A stretch of DNA of 57,544 bases from Verrucomicrobiaceae bacterium (lineage in GTDB: Bacteria > Verrucomicrobiota > Verrucomicrobiia > Verrucomicrobiales > Verrucomicrobiaceae), in the NCBI GenBank assembly GCA_027486585.1, contig JAIXOU010000112.1:1-57544 (forward strand), in the 5' to 3' direction. The translations under genes were made by a program, and so were the position numbers. Each line of letters opens with the position of its first letter. The stretch's first letter is position 1. Positions 1 through 48,479 of the stretch are shown in pieces. The notes beneath the pieces are model-generated. The model ran no database searches and had not been told where the DNA came from. It worked only from the letters and a program-made list of their open reading frames with translations.

Positions 1-129
1 CACACGGGGATCAGGCAGCGTGGCGAAGAGTTCTTTGAGCCGAAGGACCTCTTGCAGGTCGGCTCTGACTTGAGGGTCGAGGGATTCAGTGGTGATAAGG
101 GTGGCTTCCATCCATACCCAGTTATTCAT
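1..129 (-). CDS. N-terminus of a truncated protein, possibly ISAs1-type transposase
   Basis: The minus strand reads open from an ATG at 129 to the window edge, giving 43 residues that begin MNNWVWMEATLITT and end ELFATLPDPRV. A second in-frame ATG lies at 111. The final LPDPRV after a helical stretch resembles the start of ISAs1-family transposases, where a phrase like FAxLPDPR precedes the HP..DIL segment. This is a resemblance only, since the catalytic part is outside the window. The gene diverges from the Ter operon, with about 200 bases between them that contain no other gene. If it is a transposase, it would mark a mobile boundary next to the Ter locus. Confidence 0.45.
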   Translation of the reverse strand, partial: MNNWVWMEATLITTESLDPQVRADLQEVLRLKELFATLPDPRV

Positions 130-330
130 TTCATGCGTTTGCCCTGACCTCTAACTTAAACTTTCTTAAAGTGTATGAGATCTGCTGCGCTAGCGACACC
201 ATCTGCGTGGCTTGAATAGAGTGGGAGCCATAATCCAGACACTCAAGCTTGCTAATACTTTCGATTGATTGGAATAACTTCTTGCAGTGTCCGCAAAAAT
301 CCTTAAAACGAGAACTGTTCTTAGACTCCC

Positions 331-1209
331 ATGAATGCCCTCCCCTACAACCTAATCGCCGCCTTTGCATTCCCAACGTCTCCAGAGTTGGTAGAGGCAA
401 TCCCAATCATCATCTCGCTAATCGTTATCGAGGGGCTTCTTAGTGTGGACAACGCGCTCGCCATTGCGGCCATGGCGAATCATTTGCCAGGAAAACAGAA
501 GTATCAGGCGCTCAAATGGGGTATCTTCGGAGCCTATTTGTTTCGCGGTGTATGTCTCGCCTTCGCAGCATGGATCATTGAAAATCCGTGGCTAAAAATC
601 TGCGGCGCGGCCTACCTAGTTTATTTAATGAGTGAGCATTTCACGGGGGGCGGTGATGAGGACAATGACGGAAAGGCCGACTCTCCCAATCAGCGCGGAT
701 TTTGGGCTACTATCATCGCCATCGAGGTAATGGATCTGAGCCTCAGCGTGGACAATGTCGTTGCTGCTGTCGCCATGAGTCCAAAGCTCTGGGTGGTGTG
801 TCTTGGTGTGTTCATTGGCATTTTAGCATTGCGGTTTGTAGCTGGCGCATGCATCAAGCTAATCGAAAAATTTCCCATTCTAGAAGACACTGCGTTTCTG
901 TTGATTGGGTATGTCGGTTTCATCTTATGCTATGAACTGCTGAGTGATCCAAACAGCGGTTTCCAGCTTCTTCCTGGGCCTGTGCATGTGAGTGCAGGTC
1001 AGAAATTCATCGGCATCATCATTATCATAGCTGTTTCAATTTTTTACTCAAAATCCGAAGTCATACAGAATGCTTTGAAGCCGCTATTCAAACTAAGTTA
1101 TGGCCCAATGAAGCTCGTCGCTACCCTCGTCGGTCTTGTGCTGAAGATTATCCTACTACCTTTCAAGGTGATCATTGGCCTATTTAAAAGCAAGCCTTCA
1201 GCTGCTTAA
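331..1209 (+). CDS. terC: TerC-family integral membrane protein
   Basis: This 292-residue polytopic membrane protein belongs to the TerC/Alx/YkoY family, linked to tellurite resistance and to manganese or other metal export. Two copies of the hallmark SVDN motif are visible, at residues 38-41 (EGLLSVDNALA) and 139-142 (LSLSVDNVVAA), each in a hydrophobic helix and consistent with the family's internal duplication. An acidic, glycine-rich loop at about 105-120 (GGGDEDNDGKAD) separates the halves. About seven hydrophobic segments are present and the C-terminus is basic. The ATG start has no Shine-Dalgarno sequence. It is the first gene of the Ter operon, 32 bases before the first TerD, so it is probably the membrane partner of the TerD proteins. 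The transported substrate cannot be read from sequence. Confidence 0.93.
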   Translation: MNALPYNLIAAFAFPTSPELVEAIPIIISLIVIEGLLSVDNALAIAAMANHLPGKQKYQALKWGIFGAYLFRGVCLAFAAWIIENPWLKICGAAYLVYLMSEHFTGGGDEDNDGKADSPNQRGFWATIIAIEVMDLSLSVDNVVAAVAMSPKLWVVCLGVFIGILALRFVAGACIKLIEKFPILEDTAFLLIGYVGFILCYELLSDPNSGFQLLPGPVHVSAGQKFIGIIIIIAVSIFYSKSEVIQNALKPLFKLSYGPMKLVATLVGLVLKIILLPFKVIIGLFKSKPSAA

Positions 1210-1241
1210 AGATCATTCATTCACTTCTAACTTATTAACTT

Positions 1242-1907
1242 ATGGCAATCAATCTAACAAAAGGACAACGAATCGACTTGCGTAAATCGAGCGGTGCGGA
1301 ACTCACTGATTTTTGTGTCGGTGTGAATTGGGGCGGCATCGAATCTAGGGGCTTCATGGGGCTGACAAAGAAGGTCGAAAATGTAGATCTCGACCTTAGC
1401 GCTGCGTTGCTTGACACCCAGGGAGCCCTTTGTGATCACATTTACTCACCACTCTACAAACCAGAACTCCTCAAACAGTTTGGGCTGCCACCTGGAAAGC
1501 TGATTGCCGCCAATGGTGCCCTGAAACATACAGGAGATGATCAGTCAGGTGATTCTGGAGGTGATGACGGTTTGGACAATGAAATCATCACAGTGAATCT
1601 CGGCCTAGTGCCAGCAAATATTGGCCAGATTTTCTTTTTCCTGAACAACTGTGGTAAAGAGGATTTCTCCCAAATTCCATACGCAAAGATTCGGATGTTC
1701 GAAGGAACTCCAACCAAGGTTAAGGAGGTCTTCGCCTCTTACAACGTGGCCGCTGAAGCTCAATACAAAGGCAAGCGTGCGCTGATTCTTGGGAGGCTCT
1801 ATAGGAAGGGCAGCGAGTGGAAGTTCGCTGCCATCGGAGATCCCACCGAGGACGCTTTCGTAGCGCAGACGGTCGCTCGAATCACTCAGGAATACAATAA
1901 ACTCTAA
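1242..1907 (+). CDS. terD: TerD-family protein 1, divergent with an insertion
   Basis: This 221-residue cytoplasmic protein starts with the family signature MAINLTKGQ. The family folds as a beta-sandwich and binds calcium through clustered acidic residues. Here VDLDLSAALLD (48-58) replaces the usual DLDASAFML, and the acidic loop HTGDDQSGDSGGDDG lies at 96-110. Between them is an insertion of about 25 residues (DHIYSPLYKPELL) not found in the two following paralogues, so this copy is nearer the TerX/TerZ type. The end retains the LGRLYRKGSEWKFAAIGD motif. It lies 32 bases after terC and 13 bases before the next terD. No Shine-Dalgarno sequence precedes the start; the leader ends TTAACTT. The TerD assignment is secure, but the individual role is unknown. 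Confidence 0.93.
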   Translation: MAINLTKGQRIDLRKSSGAELTDFCVGVNWGGIESRGFMGLTKKVENVDLDLSAALLDTQGALCDHIYSPLYKPELLKQFGLPPGKLIAANGALKHTGDDQSGDSGGDDGLDNEIITVNLGLVPANIGQIFFFLNNCGKEDFSQIPYAKIRMFEGTPTKVKEVFASYNVAAEAQYKGKRALILGRLYRKGSEWKFAAIGDPTEDAFVAQTVARITQEYNKL

Positions 1908-1920
1908 CGCGTATTTAACT

Positions 1921-2475
1921 ATGGCCATCAATCTCACAAAGGGGCAGCGCATAGATGTTGGACTTCAGCAGGCCGGAATAGGCCTGGGCTGGAGTCCGAG
2001 CAACGGGTCGTCTTCTGAGCCTTACGATCTGGATGCTAGCGCTTTTATGTTAGGAGAAAACAACAAACTAGTCGCTAGTGATTTTTTTGTGTTTTACAAC
2101 CAGCCAACATCACCTGACGGCGCAGTTAGAAGCAGCGGCGATAACAAAGATGGAGAGGGGGAGGGAGATGACGAAACTCTTTTTGCCAATCTTGCTAACG
2201 TAGATTCGAGGGTAACAGAGATCATTTTTGTGGTGACGATTCATGACGCGAAAGAACGCAAACAAAACTTCGGACAAGTGCGCAATGCCTTCATCCGAAT
2301 CTATGACCAAACCAACGCGCAGGAAATCTGCAAATACGAGTTGGATGAGGACTTTTCTACCGAGTCTGCCGTGGAGTTTGGCCGGCTTTATCGCCGTGGC
2401 GCAGCATGGAAGTTTGAGGCAATCGGACGCGGACATCAAGGTGGCTTGGAAGCGTTACTGGCCCTTTATTCATGA
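1921..2475 (+). CDS. terD: TerD-family protein 2
   Basis: This 184-residue TerD protein starts MAINLTKGQRIDVGLQ. It carries GLGW (21-24), YDLDASAFML (35-44), the acidic metal-binding loop SSGDNKDGEGEGDDE (71-85) and the conserved C-terminal block FGQVRNAFIRIYD, then CKYELDEDFSTESAVEFGRLYRR and WKFEAIG. Every canonical family motif is present, so calcium binding is expected. It sits in a tandem TerD array and is closest to the following copy, with which it shares the CKYELDEDFS...EFGRLYRR block. This points to local duplication. Its start context (TTTAACTATGGC) resembles those of its neighbours and has no Shine-Dalgarno sequence. Confidence 0.95.
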   Translation: MAINLTKGQRIDVGLQQAGIGLGWSPSNGSSSEPYDLDASAFMLGENNKLVASDFFVFYNQPTSPDGAVRSSGDNKDGEGEGDDETLFANLANVDSRVTEIIFVVTIHDAKERKQNFGQVRNAFIRIYDQTNAQEICKYELDEDFSTESAVEFGRLYRRGAAWKFEAIGRGHQGGLEALLALYS

Positions 2476-2501
2476 GTTTCAAAACCCACTGACACATAAC
2501 T

Positions 2502-3044
2502 ATGGCAATTAACCTATCGAAAGGACAACGCGTTGATATCAGCCTCCAAAATCTGGCGGTCGGTCTTGGCTGGACGGGTGATTCGGACTTGGATGCCTCG
2601 GCATTCATGGTGGCCGGAAACGGCCAAGTTCCCGCCGAAGAATTCTTCGTATTCTACGGTAATCTGGAATCGAAAGACCTAGCAGTGAAGCACTCAGGTG
2701 ACGAAAAAGCAGGCGGCTCGAGTGATGTCGAAACAATCAAAGTGGACATCCGCAAGCTAGATCCTCGAATTGAGCAAATCATCTTCACGGTGACGATTTA
2801 CGATTCTGAAACGACCGGTGAAAACTTCGGTCAGGTGCGAAACTCGTTCATCCGCATCTACAATGCGGACACCAACGAAGAACTGTGCAAATACGAATTG
2901 GATGAGGATTTCTCCATCGAAACGGCCATTGAGTTTGGGCGCCTATATAGACGTAACGATTCCTGGCGATTTGAGGCGATTGGTACGGCCGGCACTGGTG
3001 GCTTGGGATCATTCGTGAAGAAGTATGCCCAAGCCTATTCCTAA
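2502..3044 (+). CDS. terD: TerD-family protein 3
   Basis: This 180-residue TerD protein starts MAINLSKGQRVDISLQ. It has GLGWTGDSDLDASAFMV (21-37), the acidic loop HSGDEKAGGSSDVE at about 66-79, FGQVRNSFIRIYNAD, and CKYELDEDFSIETAIEFGRLYRR followed by WRFEAIG. It is the most compact and canonical member of the array, close to the length of classical TerD. The gap to the previous gene is 26 bases and to the following zinc-ribbon gene 21 bases. Cytoplasmic calcium-binding and scaffold roles are known for the family; any specific role in this organism is inference. Confidence 0.95.
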   Translation: MAINLSKGQRVDISLQNLAVGLGWTGDSDLDASAFMVAGNGQVPAEEFFVFYGNLESKDLAVKHSGDEKAGGSSDVETIKVDIRKLDPRIEQIIFTVTIYDSETTGENFGQVRNSFIRIYNADTNEELCKYELDEDFSIETAIEFGRLYRRNDSWRFEAIGTAGTGGLGSFVKKYAQAYS

Positions 3045-3065
3045 ACCTATGACCAATCAAAACAC

Positions 3066-3242
3066 ATGAGCAGCTATTCTGACGACGAAGTGTTTTTCTG
3101 CGGTCATTGCCGGCGCCAGCATGAACCGCGCAAGGGAGCAAAATGCATTCAATGCGGGCGAGAAACGATTATTTGGAACACGCGCAAGGAAAGCGGCTCA
3201 GTGATTCAGGCACGCTGGGATCGGATGCGCGGCAAAAGCTGA
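3066..3242 (+). CDS. Small two-CxxC zinc-ribbon protein in the terD array
   Basis: This is a 58-residue protein, MSSYSDDEVF onward, ending WDRMRGKS. It has CGHC at residues 12-15 and CIQC at 27-30, the spacing of a compact treble-clef or zinc-ribbon fold. The remainder is basic and probably helical. The gene fits exactly between two terD genes, with 21-base and 20-base gaps, on the same strand and at operon spacing, which is the main support for it being real. It overlaps the 5' extension of a longer terD reading frame; the terD start at 3263 resolves that conflict. It may tether TerD proteins to RNA, DNA or another zinc-ribbon partner, but this is inference. I do not recognise a named family. 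Confidence 0.75.
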   Translation: MSSYSDDEVFFCGHCRRQHEPRKGAKCIQCGRETIIWNTRKESGSVIQARWDRMRGKS

Positions 3243-3262
3243 ACTCATCACCCCTTCCACAC

Positions 3263-3901
3263 ATGGCTATCAATCTCACGAAGGGGCAGACCATTGATCT
3301 GCGCAAAGAAACGAATGACCTCGACCAGATCACAATCGGTCTTGGGTGGAGGGTGCGTGAGAAGAAGAAAGGCTTTTTGGGTGGTATCTTCGGTAGCAAG
3401 GATGAAGCGGAGTTCGATCTCGACGCCGTAGCTTTCATGCTGGACGAGAACGACAAAGTGCAGGACCGCGGAGCCGAAAAACTTGTTGGCGGCGATATTG
3501 TTTTCTTTAACAGCCGCCAGCACCCCAGCGGCACGGTAATTCACAGCGGTGACAACCGCACTGGTGGCACGGGAGCAAATGATGACGAGCAGATCATCGT
3601 GAAGCTGAACTCAGTACCCGCGAAATATCACCGCATCCTCTTCCTCGTCTGTATTTATCAGGGTATCAAGCAGGGCCAACACTTCGGTCAAGTGGAGTCA
3701 GCCTATATCCGTGCCGTGGATGGCAAAGGCAAAGAAATGGCACGCTACTCCCTCAGCTCCGAATCCGCCTACGACGGTAAATGCACTATGGTCTTCGGCG
3801 AAGTGTACCGCCGCAGCGACGGATGGAAATTCCGTGCCATCGGTGATGCCCACCCGTACGACAGCTTTGTTCATCTACTCAAAGAGCACCTGCCCCAATA
3901 A
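3263..3901 (+). CDS. terD: TerD-family protein 4 (TerX/TerZ-like)
   Basis: This is a 212-residue TerD protein. An upstream in-frame start at 3143 exists, but the start at 3263 gives the invariant family N-terminus MAINLTKGQTIDLRK and clears the zinc-ribbon gene that ends at 3242. Motifs are IGLGWR (25-30), a basic and glycine-rich insertion KKKGFLGGIFGSKDEAEFDLDAVAF (positions 34-58), and the acidic loop HSGDNRTGGTGANDDE (94-109), followed by FGQVESAYIRAVD and VFGEVYRRSDGWKFRAIGD. The GFLGGIFGS insertion is typical of larger TerX/TerZ-like paralogues. It lies 18 bases before the first VWA gene, linking the TerD block to the signalling block. Confidence 0.93.
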   Translation: MAINLTKGQTIDLRKETNDLDQITIGLGWRVREKKKGFLGGIFGSKDEAEFDLDAVAFMLDENDKVQDRGAEKLVGGDIVFFNSRQHPSGTVIHSGDNRTGGTGANDDEQIIVKLNSVPAKYHRILFLVCIYQGIKQGQHFGQVESAYIRAVDGKGKEMARYSLSSESAYDGKCTMVFGEVYRRSDGWKFRAIGDAHPYDSFVHLLKEHLPQ

Positions 3902-3919
3902 CCAACCCACATCTATATC

Positions 3920-4555
3920 ATGCGCCGTCTCCCCGTTTATCTCGTCCTCGACACCTCCGGTTCCATGTCCGGCGAACCCATTCAGCAAGTCAATAATGGC
4001 GTGCAGATGCTTGTCTCCGCCTTGCGCCAAGACCCGCAGGCGCTTGAGACGGCCTTCCTCAGTGTCATCACGTTTGATTCCACGGCCAAAGAGGCCGTGC
4101 CATTGACCGATTTGCCTTCCTTTCAGGCACCGACTGTTGCCGCTACTGGCACGACCGCGCTGGGGGAGGCGCTTTCACTCGTAGCTGACTGCGCAAAACG
4201 TGACGTGAAGACGGCCTCAGCGACTCAAAAAGCTGACTGGCGTCCGATGGTTTTCATCATGACTGACGGCAGCCCCACCGATGATTTTCAAAAAGGGCTT
4301 GCCCGATTCAAGAAGGAAAAATGGGGTGCTGTGGTAGCCTGCGGTGTGGATAGCGCAGATGTTAGCCTGCTCCAGCAGATCGCGGGTGAGGCAGTAGTCA
4401 CTCTTTCCACGGCGGATGCCAAGGCACTAGAGGCCTTCTTCAAATGGGTCACTGCGTCCATCAGCACCTCCAGCAAGAGCGTCCAGACAGGCAAAGAAGT
4501 CGAAGGACTGAACCAACTGCCGCCTCCACCCCCAGAAATCCAGGTCGTCGTTTAA
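3920..4555 (+). CDS. terY: TerY-like VWA-domain protein 1
   Basis: This 211-residue protein is essentially one von Willebrand A domain. The metal-ion adhesion site reads D11-T-S13-G-S15, with the threonine in GTTALGEAL and the aspartate in FIMTDGSPTDD, so the MIDAS is intact. It starts MRRLPVYLVLDTSGSM, the classic TerY opening, and ends in a proline tail (LPPPPPEIQVVV). No signal peptide is seen, so it is cytoplasmic. TerY proteins are the VWA arm of the TerY, PP2C and kinase triad described in Ter loci, and probably act as metal-dependent adaptors that recruit the phosphatase and kinase. The second VWA gene ends in a very similar PPPPAEIQIVV tail. Confidence 0.93.
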   Translation: MRRLPVYLVLDTSGSMSGEPIQQVNNGVQMLVSALRQDPQALETAFLSVITFDSTAKEAVPLTDLPSFQAPTVAATGTTALGEALSLVADCAKRDVKTASATQKADWRPMVFIMTDGSPTDDFQKGLARFKKEKWGAVVACGVDSADVSLLQQIAGEAVVTLSTADAKALEAFFKWVTASISTSSKSVQTGKEVEGLNQLPPPPPEIQVVV

Positions 4556-4572
4556 GTTGCTACACCAGTGAT

Positions 4573-4875
4573 ATGCAGGAGCTACCATCCATCCTGGCCG
4601 CACTGGCTATATTCGGATTACTGATCTTCATTCGCGTGAAAGTGATGCAGTTCCGATGCGGCGCGACAGGCAGGGCATTCCATTTTGGAAACAGCCTCCA
4701 GCTTATGCTCCGCGTGCTCAGCAGTCTCGCCGTGCCGGGACTTGGGCAAGCGATGTTTGGTCGTATCGGATTAGGATTGCTGCACCTCAGCGTTTTTGCC
4801 GTTGCCTTTTGCTACCTGGGAGATCTGGCTTTTTTAATCAATCTTGCCTCCGCCATGGAGCATGTCTTCCCCTGA
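4573..4875 (+). CDS. Small integral membrane protein between two VWA genes
   Basis: This 100-residue protein begins MQELPSILAALAIFGLLIFI. Three hydrophobic segments are visible, near residues 4-20, 47-66 and 70-93, with a short basic loop (RVKVMQFRCGATGR) after the first. An upstream in-frame ATG at 4444 would overlap the VWA gene and was rejected. The gene lies 17 bases after one VWA gene and 6 bases before the next, so it is certainly part of the operon. Its likely role is to present or anchor VWA partners at the membrane, by context only. I recognise no named family. Confidence 0.75.
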   Translation: MQELPSILAALAIFGLLIFIRVKVMQFRCGATGRAFHFGNSLQLMLRVLSSLAVPGLGQAMFGRIGLGLLHLSVFAVAFCYLGDLAFLINLASAMEHVFP

Positions 4876-4881
4876 TCCCCC

Positions 4882-5523
4882 ATGTCTGCCCGCCGCCTAC
4901 CTGTCTATCTCGTGCTCGATACCTCCGGCTCCATGCGTGGAGAGCCGATCCAGGCGCTTAAAGTAGGAGTGCAGGCGCTGATCTCCACGTTAAGGCAGGA
5001 TCCCCATGCACTGGAGTCCGTGCATATCTGCATCATTACCTTCGACGCAAAAGCGCGCGTACTCAGCCCACTGCAGAGCCTTGAGGACTTCCAGATGCCT
5101 CTTATCGAGTGCCCGCAGTCAGGTCCCACGATGACAGGTGCAGCTTTGGAAATGCTCTGCCAGTGCGTGGATAGGGATGTGCAGCGGACTACCGCTGATC
5201 ATAAGGGCGACTGGCGGCCAATCGCTTTTCTGATGACTGATGGTGGGCCGAACGATACCGCTCTGTATGCGCAAATGATCCCAGAAGTTCAGAAACGCCC
5301 CTTCGCTTCCATCATCGCTTGCGCCGCTGGGGCCAGAGCCAAAGTGGAACCACTGCGAAAGCTCACTGCAAACGTTTTCAACCTCGAAACGATGGACGGT
5401 CACTCTTTCGCTGGGCTTTTCCAGTGGGTGTCTTCTACCGTCTCGTCGGGGAATCGCAGCATGGGTGCGACCAGCAGCATCACGCTACCACCCCCACCGG
5501 CAGAAATTCAAATCGTCGTCTAA
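4882..5523 (+). CDS. terY: TerY-like VWA-domain protein 2
   Basis: This 213-residue VWA protein is a paralogue of the one at 3920. It opens MSARRLPVYLVLDTSGSMRGEPIQ, with the MIDAS at D13-T-S15-G-S17, the MIDAS threonine region TMTGAALEML and the aspartate in FLMTDGGPND. It ends with a proline tail (LPPPPAEIQIVV) nearly the same as that of the first copy. This suggests both tails bind the same partner. No export signal is present. It lies 6 bases after the small membrane gene and 13 bases before the PP2C phosphatase gene. Confidence 0.92.
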   Translation: MSARRLPVYLVLDTSGSMRGEPIQALKVGVQALISTLRQDPHALESVHICIITFDAKARVLSPLQSLEDFQMPLIECPQSGPTMTGAALEMLCQCVDRDVQRTTADHKGDWRPIAFLMTDGGPNDTALYAQMIPEVQKRPFASIIACAAGARAKVEPLRKLTANVFNLETMDGHSFAGLFQWVSSTVSSGNRSMGATSSITLPPPPAEIQIVV

Positions 5524-5536
5524 TCCTATTATCCAC

Positions 5537-7273
5537 ATGCAGCTCACGCCTCAGCGTCCAAATATTCAGGACATCCCAGCCTTTCTTCGCGCAATGGCCG
5601 AGGCTTTGGAAAAAATGCACGTTGAGCAGCGGGCACACGGTGGAATCGTCGAAGGAGCGCTCAAGGATTGGCTCACTACCACGGAAGACTCACTGGATGA
5701 AGAGCGCTTCAGAGCTGCTGCAAAACCTGCTGATCAACTGCCAGACGACCCGCTTCAGGCGGATGTACTTTGCTTCGCCACCTACTGCATCGGCGTCATC
5801 GCTGGCACTTCGGCAGCAAATGCCCAGCCATTCATGGCGACGCATCATCAAGGCAAAGAATGGCCAACCGAGTTCCTTCAGCTACTCGAAACACTCGCCA
5901 AACAAGACGCTACTCCTCGTGTCAGCATTTCTGATCTGAGCAGAGCCTTGAGTACACCCATTGCTCTTGAATCCGTTTTAGAACCTGAACCCGCCGGCAA
6001 TTCAGGCACTCCTTTAGTCAAACCTGCTCACCAGATGCCAGCCGTCCGCATCGCCCTCCGCAATGCAACTGTAGGCAAGCCTTACAGCTACGAACCGGGT
6101 GTGATCGCCAGTAAGATAGCCGAAACGCTCGGTCATGATCCCACCAGTGCGCGCATCTCCCATCTGCAACTACCCGAAGACTGCGGACTTGCGTTTGATC
6201 AACTTACTGGAGCCATCAGCGGTGTTCCCACTCGCGCCTTCGATAAAGAACTCAGCTTGGACTATGTGCCCAGTCTGAGCGCCAGCAGCATTACTGCGAA
6301 AGTCACGCTTCTCATCAATCCCGATCCCCTCTCGCTCTGGAAGGATCTGCCACCACCAGCCGACGCGCCGTATCAGAAGCCAGTGCTTGCTCATAGTGAA
6401 GAGCGGCTCGGACCGTATCGCATCGTCGCCGCCAGCCGTCGTGGGCGTTCCCATGCAAACAAGAGTGAGTTCCGCGATGATGACTATGCCATCGGCTACG
6501 CTGAGGAGACTGGCTGGCTCGTCATCGTCGTCGCGGACGGAGCTGGGTCGGCCATCTATTCTCGGCGTGGCTCGCAGATCGCCTGTGATGTGGCAAAGAC
6601 CAGGCTGCTCACCGTGCTCAACAGCGCCCAGCACAATCAGGCAGAGGCGCTTTACCTCCAGCATCGTGACTGGCAGCACCCAGAGGTGAAGAAGGCCCTG
6701 CGCCAATGTCTCTACGAGGCCGCTTTGCTAGCCCACCACAAGCTGCGCGCAGAGGTCGCACAGCCTACCGAGACACTGGCGCCACCTCCGACGCTCAGAA
6801 ATTACGACACCACACTCATCCTGCTCGTCATGAAAAAAACCGGTGAGGGCTGCATCGCCGCCACCTTTTCCATCGGTGATGGTGGCGCAGGCATACTGCC
6901 GCACGTAGGCGAGGGCATCCCCCTCACCAAAGCAGACTCAGGCGAGCATGCCGGGCAGACGATCTTCCTCACCTTTGACTCCACTGTGGCAAACTCCGAG
7001 GCTAACCTAGAAAGCCGCTTCCACTCAGCGCATACCCAAGAGTTCGCCGGAGCGCTCGCCATGACGGACGGCATCACTGATCCTAAATTCCCCAGCGATG
7101 CCGCATTTGCCGATCCTGCTCAGTGGGCAGCACTATGGACCGAGCTCCAGCCCGCTTTGACTAGTTCTCAGGCATTGCTCGACTGGATGAATTTCTTTTC
7201 CCCTGGCAATCACGATGACCGCACCCTCGTTGCCGTCCTGCCATCTCTACCCGCCGCCCCTGACACGCAATGA
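5537..7273 (+). CDS. PP2C-family protein phosphatase with an Ig-like segment
   Basis: This is a 578-residue protein; the ATG at 5537 was chosen because the upstream frame overlaps the VWA gene. Residues 1-150 are helical and unassigned. Residues about 168-262 read as a putative Ig/cadherin-like module (VGKPYSYEP ... GLAFDQLTGAISGVPT), a pattern common in secreted proteins but placed here in a cytoplasmic one. Residues about 290-575 form a PPM/PP2C catalytic domain, with DGAGS at 334-338, FSIGDGGAG, MTDG (D511) and NHDDRT (D560, D561), the expected metal ligands. It is the phosphatase arm of the VWA-phosphatase-kinase triad and overlaps the kinase gene by 4 bases, so the two are translationally coupled. 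It probably reverses that kinase's phosphorylation of Ter components. Confidence 0.9.
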   Translation: MQLTPQRPNIQDIPAFLRAMAEALEKMHVEQRAHGGIVEGALKDWLTTTEDSLDEERFRAAAKPADQLPDDPLQADVLCFATYCIGVIAGTSAANAQPFMATHHQGKEWPTEFLQLLETLAKQDATPRVSISDLSRALSTPIALESVLEPEPAGNSGTPLVKPAHQMPAVRIALRNATVGKPYSYEPGVIASKIAETLGHDPTSARISHLQLPEDCGLAFDQLTGAISGVPTRAFDKELSLDYVPSLSASSITAKVTLLINPDPLSLWKDLPPPADAPYQKPVLAHSEERLGPYRIVAASRRGRSHANKSEFRDDDYAIGYAEETGWLVIVVADGAGSAIYSRRGSQIACDVAKTRLLTVLNSAQHNQAEALYLQHRDWQHPEVKKALRQCLYEAALLAHHKLRAEVAQPTETLAPPPTLRNYDTTLILLVMKKTGEGCIAATFSIGDGGAGILPHVGEGIPLTKADSGEHAGQTIFLTFDSTVANSEANLESRFHSAHTQEFAGALAMTDGITDPKFPSDAAFADPAQWAALWTELQPALTSSQALLDWMNFFSPGNHDDRTLVAVLPSLPAAPDTQ

Positions 7274-8781: not shown

Positions 8782-8793
8782 ATCGTTTAGTCT

Positions 8794-9039
8794 ATGAAAT
8801 TTGGCCTGCGCATCCCCTCGCTCAAAAAACGTATCGCAGCACGCACCTCGGTAGCGCGGGTCGTCCGCCATTGTTTAGGACTGAAAGCACCACGCGGATG
8901 GGGCTGGCTCACCGATCCAAAACGCGCACTCTACAACCGAGTTTACAACCGCACCACACGAGGTTGCCTTGTTGTATTGTTGGGCCTCTGCGGAGCCATC
9001 CTTTGTCTCCTGCTACTATTCACCATCTCGCTTCAATAA
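8794..9039 (+). CDS. Short basic protein with one membrane helix
   Basis: This 81-residue protein starts MKFGLRIPSLKKRIAART. Residues 1-57 are very basic and contain VRHCLGLKAPRGWGWLTDPK and the phrase YNRVYNRTT. Residues 58-78 form one transmembrane helix (CLVVLLGLCGAILCLLLLF). I recall similar GWGWLT-P-K/YNR-YNRT proteins as uncharacterised neighbours of signalling genes, but give no family name. The alternative frame 8778-9050 overlaps the kinase stop but has an unnatural composition rich in His, Pro, Ser and Thr. This frame fits better and lies 12 bases after the kinase and 7 bases before the third VWA gene. It may be a membrane anchor for the triad. Confidence 0.72.
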   Translation: MKFGLRIPSLKKRIAARTSVARVVRHCLGLKAPRGWGWLTDPKRALYNRVYNRTTRGCLVVLLGLCGAILCLLLLFTISLQ

Positions 9040-9046
9040 TAATGTC

Positions 9047-10081
9047 ATGAACCGTCGTCTCCCCGTTTATCTACTCATAGACTGCTCTGAATCCATGATC
9101 GGCGGCGGCATCGAAGCTGTACGAGCTGGAATCACTACAATGATCAGCCAGTTGCGGCGTGATCCACACGCGCTGGACACCGTGTATCTCAGTGTCATTA
9201 CCTTTGATGCTGAAGCACGGGTGGTCGTGCCGATGACACCGCTTCTCGATTTTCAAGAGCCTCCGCTCACGATCAAGCCAGGCACCTCTCTCGGTGGAGC
9301 TCTCAAACTACTCGCCGACCGAATCCAAAACGAGGTGCACAAGACCTCCCACAACGCTAAAGGTGACTACCGCCCGCTCGTGCTCCTGCTCACTGACGGC
9401 CAGCCTGGCGACGACTGGCAAACACCGCTCTCCCGCATCGGTGCCCAAGTCAAACCACGCCCCGCTAACATCTACGCCATTGGCTGTGGCACTGATGTCG
9501 ATTACTCCGTGCTTCAAAGCATCACCGATGTCGTCCTGCGCATGGATGACATGGGGCCGGAGTCTTTCGGAAAGCTATTTGTTTGGCTTACCGCCTCCGT
9601 CTCAAGCGCCAGCCAGGGAGTCAGCGAAACTAACGACGGTAAAATCAAACTCGAAAAGCTGCCCAACAATGTCGAAGCAGTCACAGCAAAGGCGGAACCA
9701 CTGCCAGACGGACCACCTCGTCAGGCATTCCTCCGCGCACGCTGTTCCACGAAAAAGTTTCCCTATCTGATACGCTACAAGTTTGACTCCATGGTCGGCT
9801 GTTACCAGCCCGTCAAAGCCCACCGCCTTAGCGAAGAGGATGCCAAAACTGCCAGCCAGGGTAAATTGCCGGACATCCCCAGCCAGCTCCTTAACGGTGC
9901 CACAGCCTGCCCTTGGTGCGAAAGGACTGGTGCCGGTTCTTGTGGAAACTGCGGCACCATTTTCTGTTCTGATATGAACGACAGGACTGACACGACCTGT
10001 CCCGGCTGCGGCAATATTTTGAAAAGAGATCCACGGGGGGGAGACGGGAAGGGTTTCAATGTGCGGCAAAGCGGCGGCTAA
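9047..10081 (+). CDS. TerY-like VWA protein 3 with C-terminal zinc ribbons
   Basis: This is a 344-residue protein. Its N-terminal VWA domain (about 1-200) opens MNRRLPVYLLIDCSESM, with the MIDAS at D12-C-S14-E-S16, the threonine in GTSLGGAL and LLLTDGQPGDD. The DxSxS motif is intact, although the usual Gly is Glu. A linker follows, then a segment with SMVGCYQPVKAHR, and at about 292-330 a cysteine-rich double zinc ribbon (CPWC, CGNC, CPGC plus FCSD). The zinc ribbons match the kinase's own ribbon in style and suggest shared protein-protein contacts. The start at 9047 was chosen because it reproduces the RRLPVYL opening of the other VWA copies. It lies 7 bases after the basic membrane gene. 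Confidence 0.9.
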   Translation: MNRRLPVYLLIDCSESMIGGGIEAVRAGITTMISQLRRDPHALDTVYLSVITFDAEARVVVPMTPLLDFQEPPLTIKPGTSLGGALKLLADRIQNEVHKTSHNAKGDYRPLVLLLTDGQPGDDWQTPLSRIGAQVKPRPANIYAIGCGTDVDYSVLQSITDVVLRMDDMGPESFGKLFVWLTASVSSASQGVSETNDGKIKLEKLPNNVEAVTAKAEPLPDGPPRQAFLRARCSTKKFPYLIRYKFDSMVGCYQPVKAHRLSEEDAKTASQGKLPDIPSQLLNGATACPWCERTGAGSCGNCGTIFCSDMNDRTDTTCPGCGNILKRDPRGGDGKGFNVRQSGG

Positions 10082-10088
10082 ACTACAC

Positions 10089-10463
10089 ATGTCTTCCTAC
10101 GTCCATCAAGTCCTCACACCAAATGAGCACGTCGCCCACGAGGCACGTCTGCACTGGATCATATTCCTGTCTCCGACCAATTTGTTCAGCTTTTGGATAC
10201 AGCCCTTCATCCGCAGAGCCACCAGCGAGTTCGCCATCACAAATAAGCGTATTATCATCAAGATTGGCCTCATATCCCGCCGCACGCTGGAAATGAATCT
10301 TTCGAAGATCGAGTCTGTAAACGTGAATCAAAGCATTCTCGCCCGTCTCCTTGGCTATGGCACTATAGTCGTAATCGGCACTGGGGGGACTCGTGAGGTG
10401 TTTTACGACATCGCAAAGCCACTCATGTTCCGCCGCAAGTTTCAGGAGCTTAGCAATTCCTGA
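10089..10463 (+). CDS. Bacterial PH-domain (bPH2/DUF304-type) protein
   Basis: This 124-residue protein opens MSSYVHQVLTPNEHV. The pattern FAITNKRIIIKIGLISRR, then LSKIESVNVNQSILARLLGYGTI and VVIGTGGTRE, is the standard YdbS/bPH2 signature. A hydrophobic stretch (WIIFLSPTNLFSFWI) precedes the PH core, as in membrane-associated family members. The start at 10089 lies 7 bases after the VWA stop; an earlier in-frame ATG at 10059 would overlap that gene and was rejected. The family is thought to bind membranes or proteins; a role in placing the triad at the membrane is inferred from the neighbours. Confidence 0.87.
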   Translation: MSSYVHQVLTPNEHVAHEARLHWIIFLSPTNLFSFWIQPFIRRATSEFAITNKRIIIKIGLISRRTLEMNLSKIESVNVNQSILARLLGYGTIVVIGTGGTREVFYDIAKPLMFRRKFQELSNS

Positions 10464-10486
10464 GGATCATCATCAAACCTTTCCCC

Positions 10487-10927
10487 ATGTTTCTCGGCAG
10501 CAAAATCAACCTCACAAAGCTATTTCCACCCCCTCTTTCGTCTGGAGGCCCTGACCCTGTGCCAAAAAGTAACGATGAGCGCCTGTTAGGGGCTATGGTT
10601 CATCTACTGCCGATTGTGGGCCCGCTGGTGCCACCGCATCTTTGGCTCTTCGCCATCCTGCCACCGCTGGTCTTTTGGAAGATCAAGCGTGGTCAAAGCG
10701 TGTTCCTGAGTGCTGTTGGCTTAGAGGTGCTGAATTTTCAGATCTGTGTGGCTGGTGTCCTTACACTGGCATCCATCCTTTGCTACATCCCGCTGATCGG
10801 CATCGTCTTTGCCCTCGCTATGCCACTGGCAATCATCGCGGCTCTCGTGCTGATGCTCGTGGCTGCACTGGAGTGCAAACAAGGCAGGTTCATCCGTTAC
10901 CCTTGGATTCAACGCTGGGTTAATTGA
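10487..10927 (+). CDS. DUF4870-like small membrane protein
   Basis: This 146-residue protein has a proline-rich N-terminus followed by SNDERLLGAMVHLLPIVGPLVPP and FWKIKRGQSVFLSAVGLEVLNFQI. That is the DUF4870 pattern: a helix ending in HL, a K/R-rich turn, then paired membrane helices. Three to four transmembrane segments are visible (about 40-60, 80-105 and 108-132). The gene is 23 bases downstream of the PH-domain gene and 1 base before the ATP-grasp gene, so it bridges the signalling and biosynthetic halves of the operon. The family has no known biochemical function. Confidence 0.75.
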   Translation: MFLGSKINLTKLFPPPLSSGGPDPVPKSNDERLLGAMVHLLPIVGPLVPPHLWLFAILPPLVFWKIKRGQSVFLSAVGLEVLNFQICVAGVLTLASILCYIPLIGIVFALAMPLAIIAALVLMLVAALECKQGRFIRYPWIQRWVN

Positions 10928-10928
10928 C

Positions 10929-13211
10929 ATGCCACCAGAAGCACCTGCAAACCCGATCTCATCTGCCTCAGCCGGAGCTTCAATAGCGAGGTCCCAGGAG
11001 ACACGAGTCTGGTTCAACAAAAGCTCGTCAAGCATCCATGGCGTGCTCAGGCAGCTTCGTTTGGACTGGGGAAGCGGGCTGGTGCTCATCGGCAGCCACA
11101 CACGCGCCGACTTTGGTCCTTTGTCAGAATGTAGTATCGTAGAGCTAGAACCGGACGGACTTTCCTCGACTGCGTATGTCAGTTGGTGTCTGGATTTCTG
11201 TCGCCTACAGCGGGTACAGGTCTTCGTGCCAGGACGTATGAAAATGGACATTGCAGACCACCGAGCGGCTTTTGAAGCGCTTGGCACGCGGCTCATCGTC
11301 GCCGGAGATGGTGCAACGATGCAGCTGCTGGAAGATAAAGGACGTTTTTTGGAGCAGGTGCCCGCCGGAGTACGTTTGCATCGCTTCTCTCGTGTGCGCA
11401 GTTGGGCGGAATTTGCAGTCGCCTGTGCCGACTTGGAGCGCGATGGCCTAACAGTATGTTTTAAGCCAGCCACTGGCATTTTTGGGCTTGGATTCCATGT
11501 GCTGGATGAGGGTATGACTTCGCTAAAACGGTTGCTCCACAGCGAAGCTCATCGCATTTCCAAAAGTGAGCTACGAGCCGTCCTGGAACCGGCTGCGATA
11601 TTCCCCGAGCTGCTGGTCATGGAATATCTGGGCGGTGCGGAATTCAGCGTGGATGTGTTGGCTGAGGCAGGAGAAGTGAAGGCGATGGTTTGCCGCCGAA
11701 AGCCGCTGAATGGGAGAATCCGTATCGATGGCACCTCACGCACGGAGCTTGTGGCCGAGGGCACATCGCAATTAATGGCTCGTGAGCCTGAGGTGGAGGC
11801 GATGGTGCGCTTGTTGGTGGCACATTTCCAACTCGGAGGTCTTATCAATGTACAGTTTCGCTGCCGCGCGCAGCGTCCCGAGCAGCCGTGCCTTTTGGAG
11901 ATAAACGGGCGCATGTCTGGTGGTTTGCCTTATGTGGGCCTATCCGGTCTGAATCTTCCCTTGCTGGCAGTCAAGGCTGCTCTGCGTGGCGCGGGCGATC
12001 CTTGGCCAGAGATGCCTGAGCCTCGGCTGCCACTGCGGGTGCAGGAGCGGTCGGAGATGTTTGTGATGCCTGACCTCAGCACGCCGCCAGCCAGCCACTG
12101 GCTTGCCTGCGCTGACCACCATTTCGAGGCACGCTTGCCAGGCGGATGTTTCCAATTTGCGATGAGCAAACAGGAACTGCCTCTGCGTGTGCTTTGTGAT
12201 GTAGCGCTACGGCATAATTCACGGCGCAGGTTTCTCTTTGTCAGCAAAGTGCTGGGCCGCCACTGTCCGGTGCGTCCAGCAGCCCTTCTCGAGGTGGCGC
12301 GAAAGCTTGCGGAAAAGCTTATCTTGAAACTCAAGAGTGAACCCGTGATCTTCATCGGCATGGCAGAGACGGCAACCACGCTCGGCCAGGCGGTGTTCCG
12401 TGAATGGCTGGCGCTCGGTGGAAGCGGCCTCTACATCGAAACTACGCGCAGACGTACTGGTGGGCCTTTAGCCTTTGAATTTGCCGAAGTGCACTCGCAC
12501 GCGACGGCCCATGCCGTGCATTTGCCAAGCGCACAGGAAGATCCGCACGGTTGGTTTCAAACCGCAGCACAAGCAATCATCGTGGATGATGAGGCTACGA
12601 CGGCCCTCACCGCTGCGGCGCTTGCGGAGCAGTTCCGACTCTGGCGTGGAGGTGATGGATCGCCTGCTGTGACTCTGGCTGTGCTGCTTTCCTGGCATCG
12701 TCAGTCAGTAACAAAGCCACACGGACTAGCCGGGATCGAGAGTCTGGCGGAAGGTGCCTTCGAGTTTCACACGCAGGCCGAACTTTCTACGCCGCCTGTC
12801 GTGCAACAAGCTTTGGACATGCAAGTGACCGCGCGGCGCGGAGTGCGGCACGGCACTATCTGCCAGGAGACGCTACCAGAACATTGGAAAGTGACCGCAC
12901 GACATGGTGAGCGCGTGCTGGTCATCGGCCAAGGCGAATATGGCTTTCAGCCTCTACTGCTGGCTGAGTGGCTAGAGCAGCAGGGAGTCTCCGCCTGGGT
13001 ACAGGCGACTACACGCTCACCCATCCTGCTCGGTGGGGCCATCCAGCATTTGCGCCGCTTCCCTGCGCTGTCGAGCGAAGGGCATGATGAGCATCTCTAT
13101 AACGTGCCGCCTCATCATGGCTATGATCGTGTGCTGCTGTGTCTGGAAGACGCGCCGCCAGCGCTGGATCACCCGATATGGCAGGTGCCTGGATTGGAGG
13201 TGCTAGTATGA
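10929..13211 (+). CDS. ATP-grasp / phosphoribosyltransferase / TRSP fusion enzyme
   Basis: This 760-residue protein joins three modules of the Ter-linked biosynthetic pathway. Residues about 40-340 are an ATP-grasp ligase (VCFKPATGIFGLGFHVLDEG; LLVMEYLGGAEFSVDVLAEAG; metal-binding LEINGRMSGGLPY). Residues about 470-640 are an orotate-PRTase-like domain (PVIFIGMAETATTLGQAVF; TRR; FAEVHSHATAHAVHLP; PRPP-site-like IIVDDEATTA). Residues about 655-760 are a TRSP domain, with its namesake TRSP in VQATTRSPI. In the families I know, the ATP-grasp and the PRTase-TRSP are usually separate proteins. The product is probably a ribosylated amide- or peptide-linked small molecule, which is inference. It begins 1 base after the DUF4870-like gene and overlaps the HAD gene by 4 bases. 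Confidence 0.87.
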   Translation: MPPEAPANPISSASAGASIARSQETRVWFNKSSSSIHGVLRQLRLDWGSGLVLIGSHTRADFGPLSECSIVELEPDGLSSTAYVSWCLDFCRLQRVQVFVPGRMKMDIADHRAAFEALGTRLIVAGDGATMQLLEDKGRFLEQVPAGVRLHRFSRVRSWAEFAVACADLERDGLTVCFKPATGIFGLGFHVLDEGMTSLKRLLHSEAHRISKSELRAVLEPAAIFPELLVMEYLGGAEFSVDVLAEAGEVKAMVCRRKPLNGRIRIDGTSRTELVAEGTSQLMAREPEVEAMVRLLVAHFQLGGLINVQFRCRAQRPEQPCLLEINGRMSGGLPYVGLSGLNLPLLAVKAALRGAGDPWPEMPEPRLPLRVQERSEMFVMPDLSTPPASHWLACADHHFEARLPGGCFQFAMSKQELPLRVLCDVALRHNSRRRFLFVSKVLGRHCPVRPAALLEVARKLAEKLILKLKSEPVIFIGMAETATTLGQAVFREWLALGGSGLYIETTRRRTGGPLAFEFAEVHSHATAHAVHLPSAQEDPHGWFQTAAQAIIVDDEATTALTAAALAEQFRLWRGGDGSPAVTLAVLLSWHRQSVTKPHGLAGIESLAEGAFEFHTQAELSTPPVVQQALDMQVTARRGVRHGTICQETLPEHWKVTARHGERVLVIGQGEYGFQPLLLAEWLEQQGVSAWVQATTRSPILLGGAIQHLRRFPALSSEGHDEHLYNVPPHHGYDRVLLCLEDAPPALDHPIWQVPGLEVLV

Positions 13212-13978
13212 ACGTGAACATACAGACCGAAAATCACGACTGGGTAGCCACAGACTTAGATGGCACGCTTTTCTCTCGTCAATGGGCTGGAGTGGGCGCT
13301 GTGCCTGGCACTTGGCGGGAAATCGGTAGAGGCAGCCCGAAGCGTGAACCCTCTAGTTGGGTGCCGCCTGAGACACACCGCCTGCTGCTGGCACTTTCGA
13401 TCTCCGCCTGCATCGTGCCAGTGACGGCTCGTGATGAGGCATCGTTTTCGCGAGTGTCTGTGTCTGGGCTGCGTCTCAGCGGCCCAGCCATTTTGGCGAA
13501 TGGAGCCATCGTGCTCGACCCAGACGGTGGGGCTGATCAGCAATGGGTGACGCAGGTTTCCCGAGTGCTCGCCCCATGGCAGCAACGCCTTGAGCGGTTG
13601 TGCGAGGTGTTCATCAAGCGCAGTGGTCACATCGCCCGTCCTCGTTTGGTGGCTGGCCCGGCGGCGATGTCCGCCTACCTCGTGGCAAAGGCTCCTGAAG
13701 GCTGGTGGCATTGCGCGGAAGGAACCACGTTACTCACTAATATGGCCACTGAGGATACAGCGGAGTGCTGCGTAGCAGTGCTCGGCAATGAGCTGCAAAT
13801 CCTGCCGCCAGGACTGGGCAAAGCTACAGCCATGCAGTTCGTTCAGCAGCGATACTTTGGTGGGCAGGCTCCACTACTCTGCCTCGGAGATCAGCTACCT
13901 GATCTAGCCTTCATGAGATTAGGCGGGCTACTCGCCACCCCGGCCGGATCACCCTTGACAGAACTTTGGAACTCATGA
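13208..13978 (+). CDS. HAD-superfamily phosphatase of the Ter biosynthetic module
   Basis: This 256-residue protein starts within an ATGA overlap, which fixes the start at 13208. Motif I is VATDLDGTLF, with nucleophile D16 and D18; motif II is VPVTARD; the late acidic motif is LCLGDQLPDLAFM. The layout is that of a Cof-type HAD with a cap inserted between motifs II and III (about 85-200). It probably removes a phosphate from the ribosylated intermediate made by the neighbouring PRTases. It also overlaps the next gene by an ATGA. An upstream start at 13139 lies inside the previous gene and was rejected. Confidence 0.9.
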   Translation: MNVNIQTENHDWVATDLDGTLFSRQWAGVGAVPGTWREIGRGSPKREPSSWVPPETHRLLLALSISACIVPVTARDEASFSRVSVSGLRLSGPAILANGAIVLDPDGGADQQWVTQVSRVLAPWQQRLERLCEVFIKRSGHIARPRLVAGPAAMSAYLVAKAPEGWWHCAEGTTLLTNMATEDTAECCVAVLGNELQILPPGLGKATAMQFVQQRYFGGQAPLLCLGDQLPDLAFMRLGGLLATPAGSPLTELWNS

Positions 13979-15096
13979 ACATCCCTCTGGATTCTGCGCC
14001 CTTCTCCGGCAGCTACGCACCAGATGAAGTGACCTTTCTCCTTCGTCGCCTGCATCTGGAGACGACCCCGCTGGAGCAGAGGGAGCAGCAGATTCAAAGC
14101 GGCCACAGCCATTACAGCGAGATGATCGGCCCCGAGGACGCACCCACTCGCGAGCGGTTGCGCCTATTCCGCGAGTGCTTGGTGACGAATGGAATGCGTA
14201 TGGCCAGAGACATCGCCATCCTCGCGGATGCGCTGGCCGCCTCCGCAGTGGGCTGCGAGCTCACCGTCGTCTCCATCGCCCGCGCTGGTACACCAGTCGG
14301 CGTCTTGCTGCTGCATCGTCTTCGGCAAACGGCACCCCATCTGCGTCTGGCACATTACTCCATCTCAGTGATCCGGGATCGCGGTGCTGACCTTGTAGCC
14401 CTGAGCTGGATCATGGCACGTCATGCACCTAACAGTCTGCGCTTTGTCGATGGATGGACAGGGAAAGGCACCATCGCGCGCGAGCTGCAACGCTCCCTCG
14501 GCTCGTGGCCAAAAGCACCCGCAGAATTGCACCCCGGCCTGTGGGTGCCGCTGGACGTGTGTGGCGTCGCCACCTTTGCCGCAAGCAGCCGAGATTATCT
14601 GATCCCCTCGACGCTCCTCGGCGGCACCATCTCCGGCTTAGTCTCACGCAGCGTGCTACCGCGCGGTGAGGATGAACATCTCCACGGCTTTGTCTCACTA
14701 GATCATCTCCGTCGGCATGATCTGAGCCGCTGGTTTATCCGCACGCTGACCGCGATGATGGCGGACATCCCGCAAAGTACCACACCACCTCTGAATGCAA
14801 GCGGTGGTCCTGCTCGCCATGCTGAGGCCGTTAAATGCTTGGCTGAAACCCTGGCCCAATATGGCATCGCAGACGCAAATCGCGTAAAACTCGGTATTGG
14901 CGAGACGGTGCGTGTCTTACTCCGTCGTCTACCGCAAGTCGTCTGCCTGAGCCCAGACACGTATGCGGCAGATGCGCATATGATCCGCCGTCTAGCCACT
15001 TTGCGTGCTGTGCCAGTAGAGACCGTGCCAGGATTGTCCTTCGACGCCCTGGCCGTGATCGCCTCGGCAAGCCCGAAAACTCCCTGCCACGAATGA
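13975..15096 (+). CDS. PRTase/StiP-family protein with C-terminal PELOTA-like domain
   Basis: This 373-residue protein belongs to the family annotated variously as PRTase_1 or cysteine protease StiP. Typical phrases are VSIARAGTPVGVLL, HYSISVIRDRGADLVAL and LRFVDGWTGKGTI, the last being a phosphate-binding-like loop. The C-terminal 90 residues (VKLGIGETVRVLLRR and later RAVPVETVPGLSFDALAVI) match the PELOTA RNA-binding-like domain found in the same Ter clusters. The protease label is doubtful; the sequence favours a phosphoribosyltransferase-like role. The ATG at 13975 overlaps the previous stop, and the gene's own stop overlaps the following start, so it is translationally coupled on both sides. 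A TTG at 13966 is a weaker start. Confidence 0.87.
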   Translation: MNIPLDSAPFSGSYAPDEVTFLLRRLHLETTPLEQREQQIQSGHSHYSEMIGPEDAPTRERLRLFRECLVTNGMRMARDIAILADALAASAVGCELTVVSIARAGTPVGVLLLHRLRQTAPHLRLAHYSISVIRDRGADLVALSWIMARHAPNSLRFVDGWTGKGTIARELQRSLGSWPKAPAELHPGLWVPLDVCGVATFAASSRDYLIPSTLLGGTISGLVSRSVLPRGEDEHLHGFVSLDHLRRHDLSRWFIRTLTAMMADIPQSTTPPLNASGGPARHAEAVKCLAETLAQYGIADANRVKLGIGETVRVLLRRLPQVVCLSPDTYAADAHMIRRLATLRAVPVETVPGLSFDALAVIASASPKTPCHE

Positions 15097-15998
15097 ATCG
15101 CGCCCTTTCCGATCTGCCCATGCTGGCGCCTATGCTATACACACCGGCGGACCGTCCAGACCTCGCCTCAGTGCTCAGCGGTCGGCGTGACCTCGGTGTC
15201 TGCAGCATTGCTGTCTGCCTAGAGGATGCCGTGCATCCCGAGAATCGGCAAACTGCCGCAGAAGCACTATGCCGCACCCTGAGCTCTCTCGAAGCGGTCC
15301 CTCGCTCCATCTTTATCCGCCCAGCCGATGTAGCAGCCCTGGAGTGGCTCATCGAACATCTACCGCTAGAGCACATCAGCGGTTTCATCTTACCGAAGGC
15401 TACCGTGGCAAAAATCCACCTTTGGGTGGAGCGCTCCGCCGGTCTCCACACCCTCCTGCCCATCCTGGAAAGCCGCGAAGCACTCGACCCTGTCGGCAGA
15501 CGAGAACTAGCCCAAGCCTGCGCCGCACACCCGCCTCTCATCACCGGAGCACGCATCGGCGCGAATGATCTCTTCTCGCTGCTTGGTGGTTTGCGCCGGC
15601 CTGCCGGACGCACTATCTATGAAACTCCTGTTGGTCGTGTCATTGATGAACTGCTAGAGGCATTCAGCGCACATTCCATCCGACTTTGCGGCCCAGTCTT
15701 TGATCGTATCCAAGATCTGGAAACACTATCTCGCGAAGTTTCCGAAGACGTACATCGCGGACTCCATGCCAAGACCGCCGTCACCCCACGCCAAGTTCAA
15801 ATCATCTGGGAAAGCTACCTTCCGAGCGAACACGAACTCGAGGAAGCCAGCTGCATCCTCGATCCTGATGGCCCCGCCGTTCTTGGCCTGCACGGTGCCA
15901 TGTTAGAGCGCGCCTGCCACACAGCTTGGGCACACCGCATATTAAGCACTGGAAAACTGCATCGAGCCGCGAGTTCCATCGAAATACAACCTCACTAG
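15093..15998 (+). CDS. HpcH/HpaI-type C-C bond lyase of the Ter module
   Basis: This 301-residue protein has the citrate-lyase-beta/HpcH TIM-barrel pattern: LGVCSIAVCLEDAVHPENRQTA near residue 30-51 (with the acidic ED metal site), FIRPADVAALEWLI, SGFILPKATVAK, LLPILESREALDP (catalytic-site glutamate) and ITGARIGANDLFSLLGGLRRP. It belongs to the C-C-lyase branch found with Ter genes. It probably makes or breaks a carbon bond in the unknown metabolite. It is the last gene of the 19-gene operon and is coupled to the PRTase gene by an ATGA overlap. No canonical terminator follows; the next clear plus-strand gene begins at 16350. Confidence 0.88.
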   Translation: MNRALSDLPMLAPMLYTPADRPDLASVLSGRRDLGVCSIAVCLEDAVHPENRQTAAEALCRTLSSLEAVPRSIFIRPADVAALEWLIEHLPLEHISGFILPKATVAKIHLWVERSAGLHTLLPILESREALDPVGRRELAQACAAHPPLITGARIGANDLFSLLGGLRRPAGRTIYETPVGRVIDELLEAFSAHSIRLCGPVFDRIQDLETLSREVSEDVHRGLHAKTAVTPRQVQIIWESYLPSEHELEEASCILDPDGPAVLGLHGAMLERACHTAWAHRILSTGKLHRAASSIEIQPH

Positions 15999-48473: not shown

Positions 48474-48479
48474 CAAGAT

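Follow-up and report, generated by a model that had tools for sequence, protein, structure and literature searches.

The window analysed here is an entire contig (C124, 57,544 nucleotides) of a Verrucomicrobiaceae genome (6.5 Mb in 147 contigs, 97% complete), and the system considered is a ter-type gene array at its positions 331-15998. The array comprises 19 genes, all on the plus strand, with successive gaps of at most 32 bases, the widest of which (32 bases) lies between the gene of TerC and the first TerD gene. The preliminary description of this DNA, which had reported such a run with several ATGA overlaps, was borne out, four 4-base overlaps being counted (at 7270, 13208, 13975 and 15093). 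To the left, bases 1-110 were recognized by eye as the beginning of a divergent gene; to the right, the next plus-strand gene, encoding a PSCyt1 (planctomycete-type) cytochrome c (16293-16805), starts about 300 bases after the array. Neither terminator-like sites (20 against 16.0, standard deviation 4.2, in shuffles of positions 1-18000) nor promoter-like sites (5 against 9.3 in shuffles) were in excess, and the window contained no match to any Rfam family or tRNA. The array is operon-like, and its genes are predicted to be co-transcribed.

Pfam searches across the array revealed TerC, four TerD and three VWA domains (the third accompanied by TerY_C), PP2C, a kinase, bPH_2, DUF4870 and the domains of a synthesis module. 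This agrees with the inventory given earlier (TerC, four TerD, three VWA, a phosphatase, a kinase, membrane partners and a synthesis module), the matches of the kinase and of the HAD-type protein being weak. Judging by these domains, the predicted proteins form three modules, namely a TerC/TerD block, a TerY-P phosphorylation triad and a module for a nucleoside-like metabolite. The TerY-P side ends at position 10927 and the synthesis side begins at 10929, with only one base between them.

The TerC/TerD block and the TerY-P triad

The array opens with the gene of a 292-aa TerC family membrane protein (331-1209; Pfam TerC E 1.1e-49), 88% identical to its counterpart in G384, a Verrucomicrobiaceae metagenome-assembled genome and the nearest named relative found. 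The four TerD domain proteins are a divergent copy of 221 aa (1242-1907; Pfam TerD E 3.6e-27) and copies of 184 aa (1921-2475; E 2.3e-68), 180 aa (2502-3044; E 9.1e-60) and 212 aa (3263-3901; E 8.2e-56, for a version lengthened upstream to 3143); no further TerD was found in the source genome. Thereafter VWA protein 1 (211 aa, 3920-4555; Pfam VWA E 1.2e-15), which also gave a vWA-TerF-like match below the cut-off (E 0.041), and VWA protein 2 (213 aa, 4882-5523; E 2.3e-10) are encoded. Both TerC and TerD, components of the classic terZABCDEF core, are present here.

The triad consists of a PP2C phosphatase of 578 aa, the N-terminal half of which has no family assignment (5537-7273, an upstream GTG start at 5465 being possible; Pfam PP2C_2 E 1e-28), a protein kinase of 503 aa with a C-terminal four-cysteine motif (7270-8781; Pfam Pkinase E 1.4e-07) and the 344-aa TerY, in which a VWA domain is followed by the metal-binding TerY_C domain (9047-10081; E 5.4e-13 and 5.4e-09, respectively). 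Residue conservation was assessed in alignments of 7 to 12 rows per family. In 10 rows each, invariant residues were found in VWA protein 1 (D11, S13, S15, T79 and D116, the row of genome G340 being the paralogue), VWA protein 2 (D13, S15, S17, T83 and D120), TerY (D12, S14, S16, T80 and D117), PP2C (D44, D158, D221, D270 and D271, counted from residue 291) and the kinase (H172-S-D174, N179 and D193). The cysteines C357, C362, C377 and C380, located after the kinase domain, were likewise invariant in 10 rows and are predicted to form a metal site. The roles of the invariant residues in the VWA, PP2C and kinase proteins, as well as in the ATP-grasp, phosphoribosyltransferase (PRTase), HAD and lyase parts considered below, we presume to be catalytic or metal-binding. 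For TerY, the VWA metal-site motif was taken from passages of PMC11090510, in which a TerY-P triad with a zinc-ribbon kinase is named. All three proteins of this triad are present in the array, i.e., a TerY-like VWA protein, a PP2C phosphatase and a kinase with C-terminal zinc-ribbon-type cysteines. Beyond the four-cysteine motif, the kinase has a tail of about 120 aa that gave no Pfam match and by eye may be FHA-like or OB-like; a kinase ending in an OB fold is a feature of the stand-alone anti-phage TerY-P system. PADLOC returned generic kinase matches and one weak VWA match for 10 window proteins, and generic kinase matches alone for a set of three Citrobacter and two window proteins; a comparison of the kinase with viral contigs revealed no relative.

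Five small accessory genes are interspersed among those described. The first encodes a 58-aa protein that carries two CxxC pairs and by eye resembles a zinc ribbon (3066-3242; dN/dS 0.09 against G384), the second a 100-aa protein which by eye is a membrane one (4573-4875; dN/dS 0.21), and the third an 81-aa protein in which one hydrophobic segment was recognized by eye at the C-terminal end (8794-9039; a 142-bit match in G384); all three are present in G384. The remaining two encode a 124-aa bacterial PH domain protein (10089-10463; Pfam bPH_2 E 1.1e-17; the start was chosen by eye, with the ATG at 10059, further upstream, as an alternative) and a 146-aa DUF4870 membrane protein (10487-10927; E 3.3e-18). 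The 265-base interval between the kinase and TerY genes admits two overlapping frames, of which 8794-9039 has a dN/dS of 0.09 against G384. The other, 8778-9050, was rejected as a gene, having a dN/dS of 2.0 and stops in G384; since it is not coding, the ATGA overlaps that it would form with its neighbours, at 8778 and 9047, have to be discounted. The "small new members" mentioned in the preliminary description therefore stand if this one was meant as 8794-9039 and lose it if it was read as 8778-9050.

In nine other loci, the 58-, 100- and 81-aa proteins gave no tblastn match at E 1e-6 (a strict threshold for short proteins), nor did phmmer at E 0.01 find them among the open reading frames (ORFs) of six of those nine loci. 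The bPH_2 and DUF4870 proteins had no match in the nine loci either, and in G384 a contig break falls at their place. The surroundings of TerY appear to be a variable slot for small TerY-P partners, occupied in the window by the 81-aa, bPH_2 and DUF4870 genes. Beside TerY, genome G156 encodes a LemA-like protein and another protein of no family (L063, 7835-8994), and genome G382 a LemA-like protein (L047, 4078-4557, minus strand).

The synthesis module and its fused enzyme

By Pfam the module is complete, comprising ATPgrasp_Ter, PRTase_2, TRSP, HAD (below the cut-off only), StiP-PELOTA and C-C_Bond_Lyase domains, the first three of which reside in a single ORF of 760 aa (10929-13211; in-frame junction also in L048). 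This ORF is followed by the genes of an HAD-type phosphatase (256 aa, 13208-13978), a StiP domain protein with a PELOTA_1 tail (373 aa, 13975-15096; StiP E 1.9e-79, PELOTA_1 E 9.7e-18) and a CitE-like C-C bond lyase (301 aa, 15093-15998; E 1.4e-58). The HAD assignment is based on below-cut-off Pfam and NCBIfam HAD-IIB (E 6.8e-07) matches and on two aspartates, D16 and D18, that did not vary among 7 rows; the expected catalytic or metal residues were invariant also in the ATP-grasp, PRTase and lyase parts, the alignments of the enzyme and VWA parts having 7 to 11 rows.

The fusion is present in G384, where a contig starts within the gene and reads through the junction in frame. ATP-grasp is encoded by a separate gene in G152, G340, G370 and G382, the four other genomes of the class with PRTase_2, as well as in all four plasmid stretches inspected (of 2559 matching records); in G340 the ATP-grasp and PRTase genes meet in an ATGA overlap. 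An alternative fusion, in which PRTase-TRSP is joined to HAD, was found in G370 (L044/L045) and G382 (L046/L047), being read through in the latter. The two different fusions suggest which enzymes act in succession. The search of genome contigs with a single protein as query returned one close relative, and an alignment used as query might reach further. A structure model of the fused enzyme (mean predicted local distance difference test score, pLDDT, 40.6) was not used. Among the best-ranked literature matches, as judged by titles and passages, no paper identified the metabolite or described this fusion. The module presumably makes a nucleoside-like, or ribosylated, small molecule: a nucleoside-like metabolite is predicted for a Ter-linked cluster in passages of PMC8115787, and those of PMC7824862 name a signal of nucleoside or nucleotide type for Ter systems.

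The chemistry expected of the last genes depends on the StiP protein. Its present Pfam and RefSeq labels make it a cysteine protease, in which case these genes would process a protein and not ribosylate a small molecule. We consider this very improbable, as no cysteine occurs in the invariant or near-invariant columns of 10 rows, in which the motifs RAG(T/V)P and DGWTGKG are conserved. These motifs, as we take it, resemble those of uracil phosphoribosyltransferase (UPRT) and of the phosphoribosyl pyrophosphate (PRPP) loop. When a StiP model (pLDDT 59, predicted template modelling score 0.61) was compared by VIA, the four top rows were PRTases with Z 7.5-7.8 (the top two being presumed such), though unrelated folds, including a ribosomal protein (7.2) and a peptide receptor (7.0), were tied with them at Z 6.8-7.2; the tail of the protein matched L30e. 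Foldseek gave no match to the model at E <= 0.001, and the StiP profile, searched against PDB sequences, gave none for the enzyme domain and marginal L7Ae matches for the tail (best E 0.012). StiP may be a second PRTase, and its label as a cysteine protease is doubtful, the missing cysteine being firmer than the fold evidence. Were StiP a PRTase, the predicted chemistry would change and the RefSeq label would be misleading.

Distribution, history and proposed working of the array

Among 384 genomes of the class, PRTase_2 was found in five and TerY_C in six, while both markers occurred together in four (the source genome, G152, G340 and G382), that is, in 4 of the 7 genomes with either marker, as expected from the earlier suggestion that the two halves co-occur in relatives. 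With the source genome excluded, the chance of three shared genomes, given 4 and 5 in 383, is 4.3e-6 by the hypergeometric distribution, kinship and transfer being ignored. Neither marker was found in any of five congeners. ATPgrasp_Ter (PF15632) was unselective as a distribution marker, with matches in 178 of the 188 genomes of the class scanned for it and in 13 of 14 controls, and was replaced by PRTase_2; the broad matches are probably carbamoyl-phosphate synthases, most of the listed frames being of about 1,100 aa. Relatives of the fused enzyme were detected on 2559 of 72,556 plasmid records, which is part of the reason why the locus matters, and on 3 of 50,697 phage records. The plasmid matches were all below 60% identity, and 2455 of them covered 80% or more of the enzyme. 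A 65-kb contig of a viral collection (L068, 8088-12003) carries relatives of PRTase, HAD, StiP and the lyase, and TerD and ATP-grasp matches fall in the same stretch.

Gene order, for which the preliminary description had suggested a survey of related genomes, is conserved in G384 and differs in others: G152 and G340 have the two halves in convergent orientation, and in G382 these lie on the same strand about 3.5 kb apart. G384 is collinear with the window at 82-85% DNA identity over 380-5621, 5825-9678 and 11651-15937. The first interruption (5622-5824) falls inside the PP2C gene, whose protein aligns to that of G384 in full length, and the second (9679-11650) coincides with the break between two G384 contigs, both of which end there; the G384 array is likely one continuous run seen across two contigs. 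Since a second genome is collinear, the array is beyond chance. The right flank of the array in G384 matches other contigs of the source genome, the right flank in the window is found on other G384 contigs, and the first 117 bases of the window on yet another. As the same array has different flanks in G384, it probably moves as a unit.

The identities of individual proteins point to horizontal transfer and to a mixed origin. The kinase is 83% identical to that of G156, a member of another family, and 61% to that of G152, of the same family. The synthesis genes, by contrast, have their nearest kin in G340, G370 and G382 and are absent from G156. In the tree of kinase and TerY, G152 groups with G340 (100/100), and a grouping of G340 with others without G152 was rejected by the approximately unbiased (AU) test (p 2.8e-5). 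In the synthesis-gene tree G152 lies outside, the grouping of G152 with G340 being weakly rejected (p 0.0245); the long-branched Deinococcus and Citrobacter rows were dropped for this test. The tested groups were chosen after the trees had been seen, and the p values are therefore no more than a guide. Because the trees of the two halves conflict, the locus appears to have been assembled from exchangeable modules, its halves having partly separate histories.

Such a history would also suit two independent neighbouring systems that are linked for transfer only, the one a TerC/TerD/TerY-P switch for stress or defence (331-10927), the other a metabolite pathway (10929-15998). Three of the seven marker genomes hold one half, and the halves can thus work apart: TerY_C occurs without PRTase_2 in G129 and G156, the reverse being the case in G370 (89% complete). 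The half trees conflict over G152 and G340, and passages of PMC7699616 and PMC11090510 report that TerY-P forms an anti-phage system on its own. Nevertheless, the halves share a locus in four class genomes and in three of the four inspected plasmids, in varied orientations, and are one base apart in the window, which makes a union for transfer only rather unlikely.

We prefer to regard the array as a ter-type locus that combines the three known modules without TerB in one operon-like array with a fused enzyme and was passed horizontally as a unit. With its proposed working included, we assign this reading a probability of about 0.72; the description of the locus is very likely correct, and for the mechanism the odds are closer to even. 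According to this mechanism, metal or envelope stress, or invasion, would act on TerC and on the metal sites of TerY and the VWA proteins; TerC would handle metal at the membrane, metal binding and scaffolding would fall to TerY and the other two VWA proteins, and the kinase and PP2C would set the phosphorylation state. The lyase, the fused enzyme, HAD and StiP would make a ribosylated small molecule, to be bound by the TerD proteins, and the small membrane proteins would anchor the complex. The substrates, the product, the order of steps and the stress sensed are put forward here as proposals. Comparable roles for the parts are proposed in passages of PMC7824862, PMC8115787 and PMC11090510, in which the pathway is not demonstrated. 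A bolder version, in which TerY-P controls a fused enzyme channelling an unstable intermediate, and StiP as a second PRTase places or exchanges the product in structured RNA via its L7Ae-like tail, seems to us hardly probable; if true, it would make the ter system an RNA-modifying stress response.

Several observations weigh against the preferred reading of a horizontally passed three-module locus. A search for TerB (PF05099) at E 0.001 found it in 4 of 14 controls and not in the source genome; since TerB is missing from this 97% complete genome, the locus is not filed as a classic terZABCDEF operon. The kinase scored 31.6 bits against a Pfam cut-off of 31.7, and its ATP-anchoring lysine could not be located. 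The one-marker genomes mentioned above count in the same direction. Transfer is deduced from a scattered occurrence, from identities and from trees with about 10 rows each; the third TerD is nearest to that of G152 (67%) and the fourth to that of G382 (71%), not to G156. Finally, the left flank of G384 had no match in the source genome, in a search made with no positive control.

Three further features of the contig were noted outside the array. A 777-aa ORF (35091-37424) has matches to Mur ligase domains and to the FAD-binding and the C-terminal domain of MurB, i.e., it is a fusion of the MurC-MurB type. A 2412-aa ORF (26908-34146) with matches to Ig-like, Laminin_G_3 and DUF5122 beta-propeller domains probably encodes a surface protein. 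A second, unrelated VWA block (46316-55778) includes a MoxR-type AAA protein (52143-53132), a DUF58 protein (53144-54007) and VWA proteins at 46316-47317 and 54729-55778.

Comparison with known systems

The set of modules is known from plasmids. In Citrobacter freundii pRHBSTW-00435_2 (IncHI1B, freshwater; L067), the same modules lie within about 20 kb: one strand carries VWA, TerD genes, terC, TerB and terZ, and the opposite one ATP-grasp, PRTase, a gene at the place of HAD, StiP, the CitE-like lyase, terW, VWA, TerD, VWA, TerY, PP2C and the kinase. Polaromonas pPNAP04 (L064) and Aromatoleum EbN1 plasmid 1 (L065) resemble Citrobacter in gene content. The annotations name TerC for Citrobacter and Aromatoleum and DUF475 for Polaromonas; they further give TerB for the former two and TerW for Citrobacter, whereas the window genome lacks TerB. 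The synthesis proteins of the three plasmids are 26-44% identical to those of the window. The plasmid loci are distributed over two strands and encode ATP-grasp and PRTase separately, whereas the window has a single strand and a fused enzyme. In Deinococcus (L066) synthesis genes are present, but no TerY, PP2C or kinase is annotated within 18 kb. Within the class, the halves adjoin in G152, G340 and G382 as they do in the window, with the arrangements described above and a separate ATP-grasp gene.

These loci, together with the 760-aa ORF, confirm the earlier statements that the Ter core is known and that a fused enzyme is present. The claim that the compact union itself deserves study as new stands for the one-strand packing and falls for the module set, which the plasmids hold within about 20 kb. 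What appears new is this packing, the fusion and the few small accessory genes, to which the two different fusions, the corrected small gene, the signs of modular history and the doubt about the StiP label may be added. A one-strand cassette with fused early enzymes would be a handy unit for finding the metabolite.

The triad of PMC11090510, as presented in its passages, agrees with that of the window in the three proteins and in the post-kinase cysteines, and differs in that a restriction system stands there in place of the TerC, TerD and synthesis genes found here. The Klebsiella ter locus, in passages of PMC8115787, has terZABCDEF and a putative biosynthetic cluster of 14 genes, the way in which the cluster works with the TerC complex being called unclear there. 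The plan of a core plus a cluster is alike in both, but the Klebsiella locus consists of two operons on opposite strands, whereas in the window the whole array lies on one.

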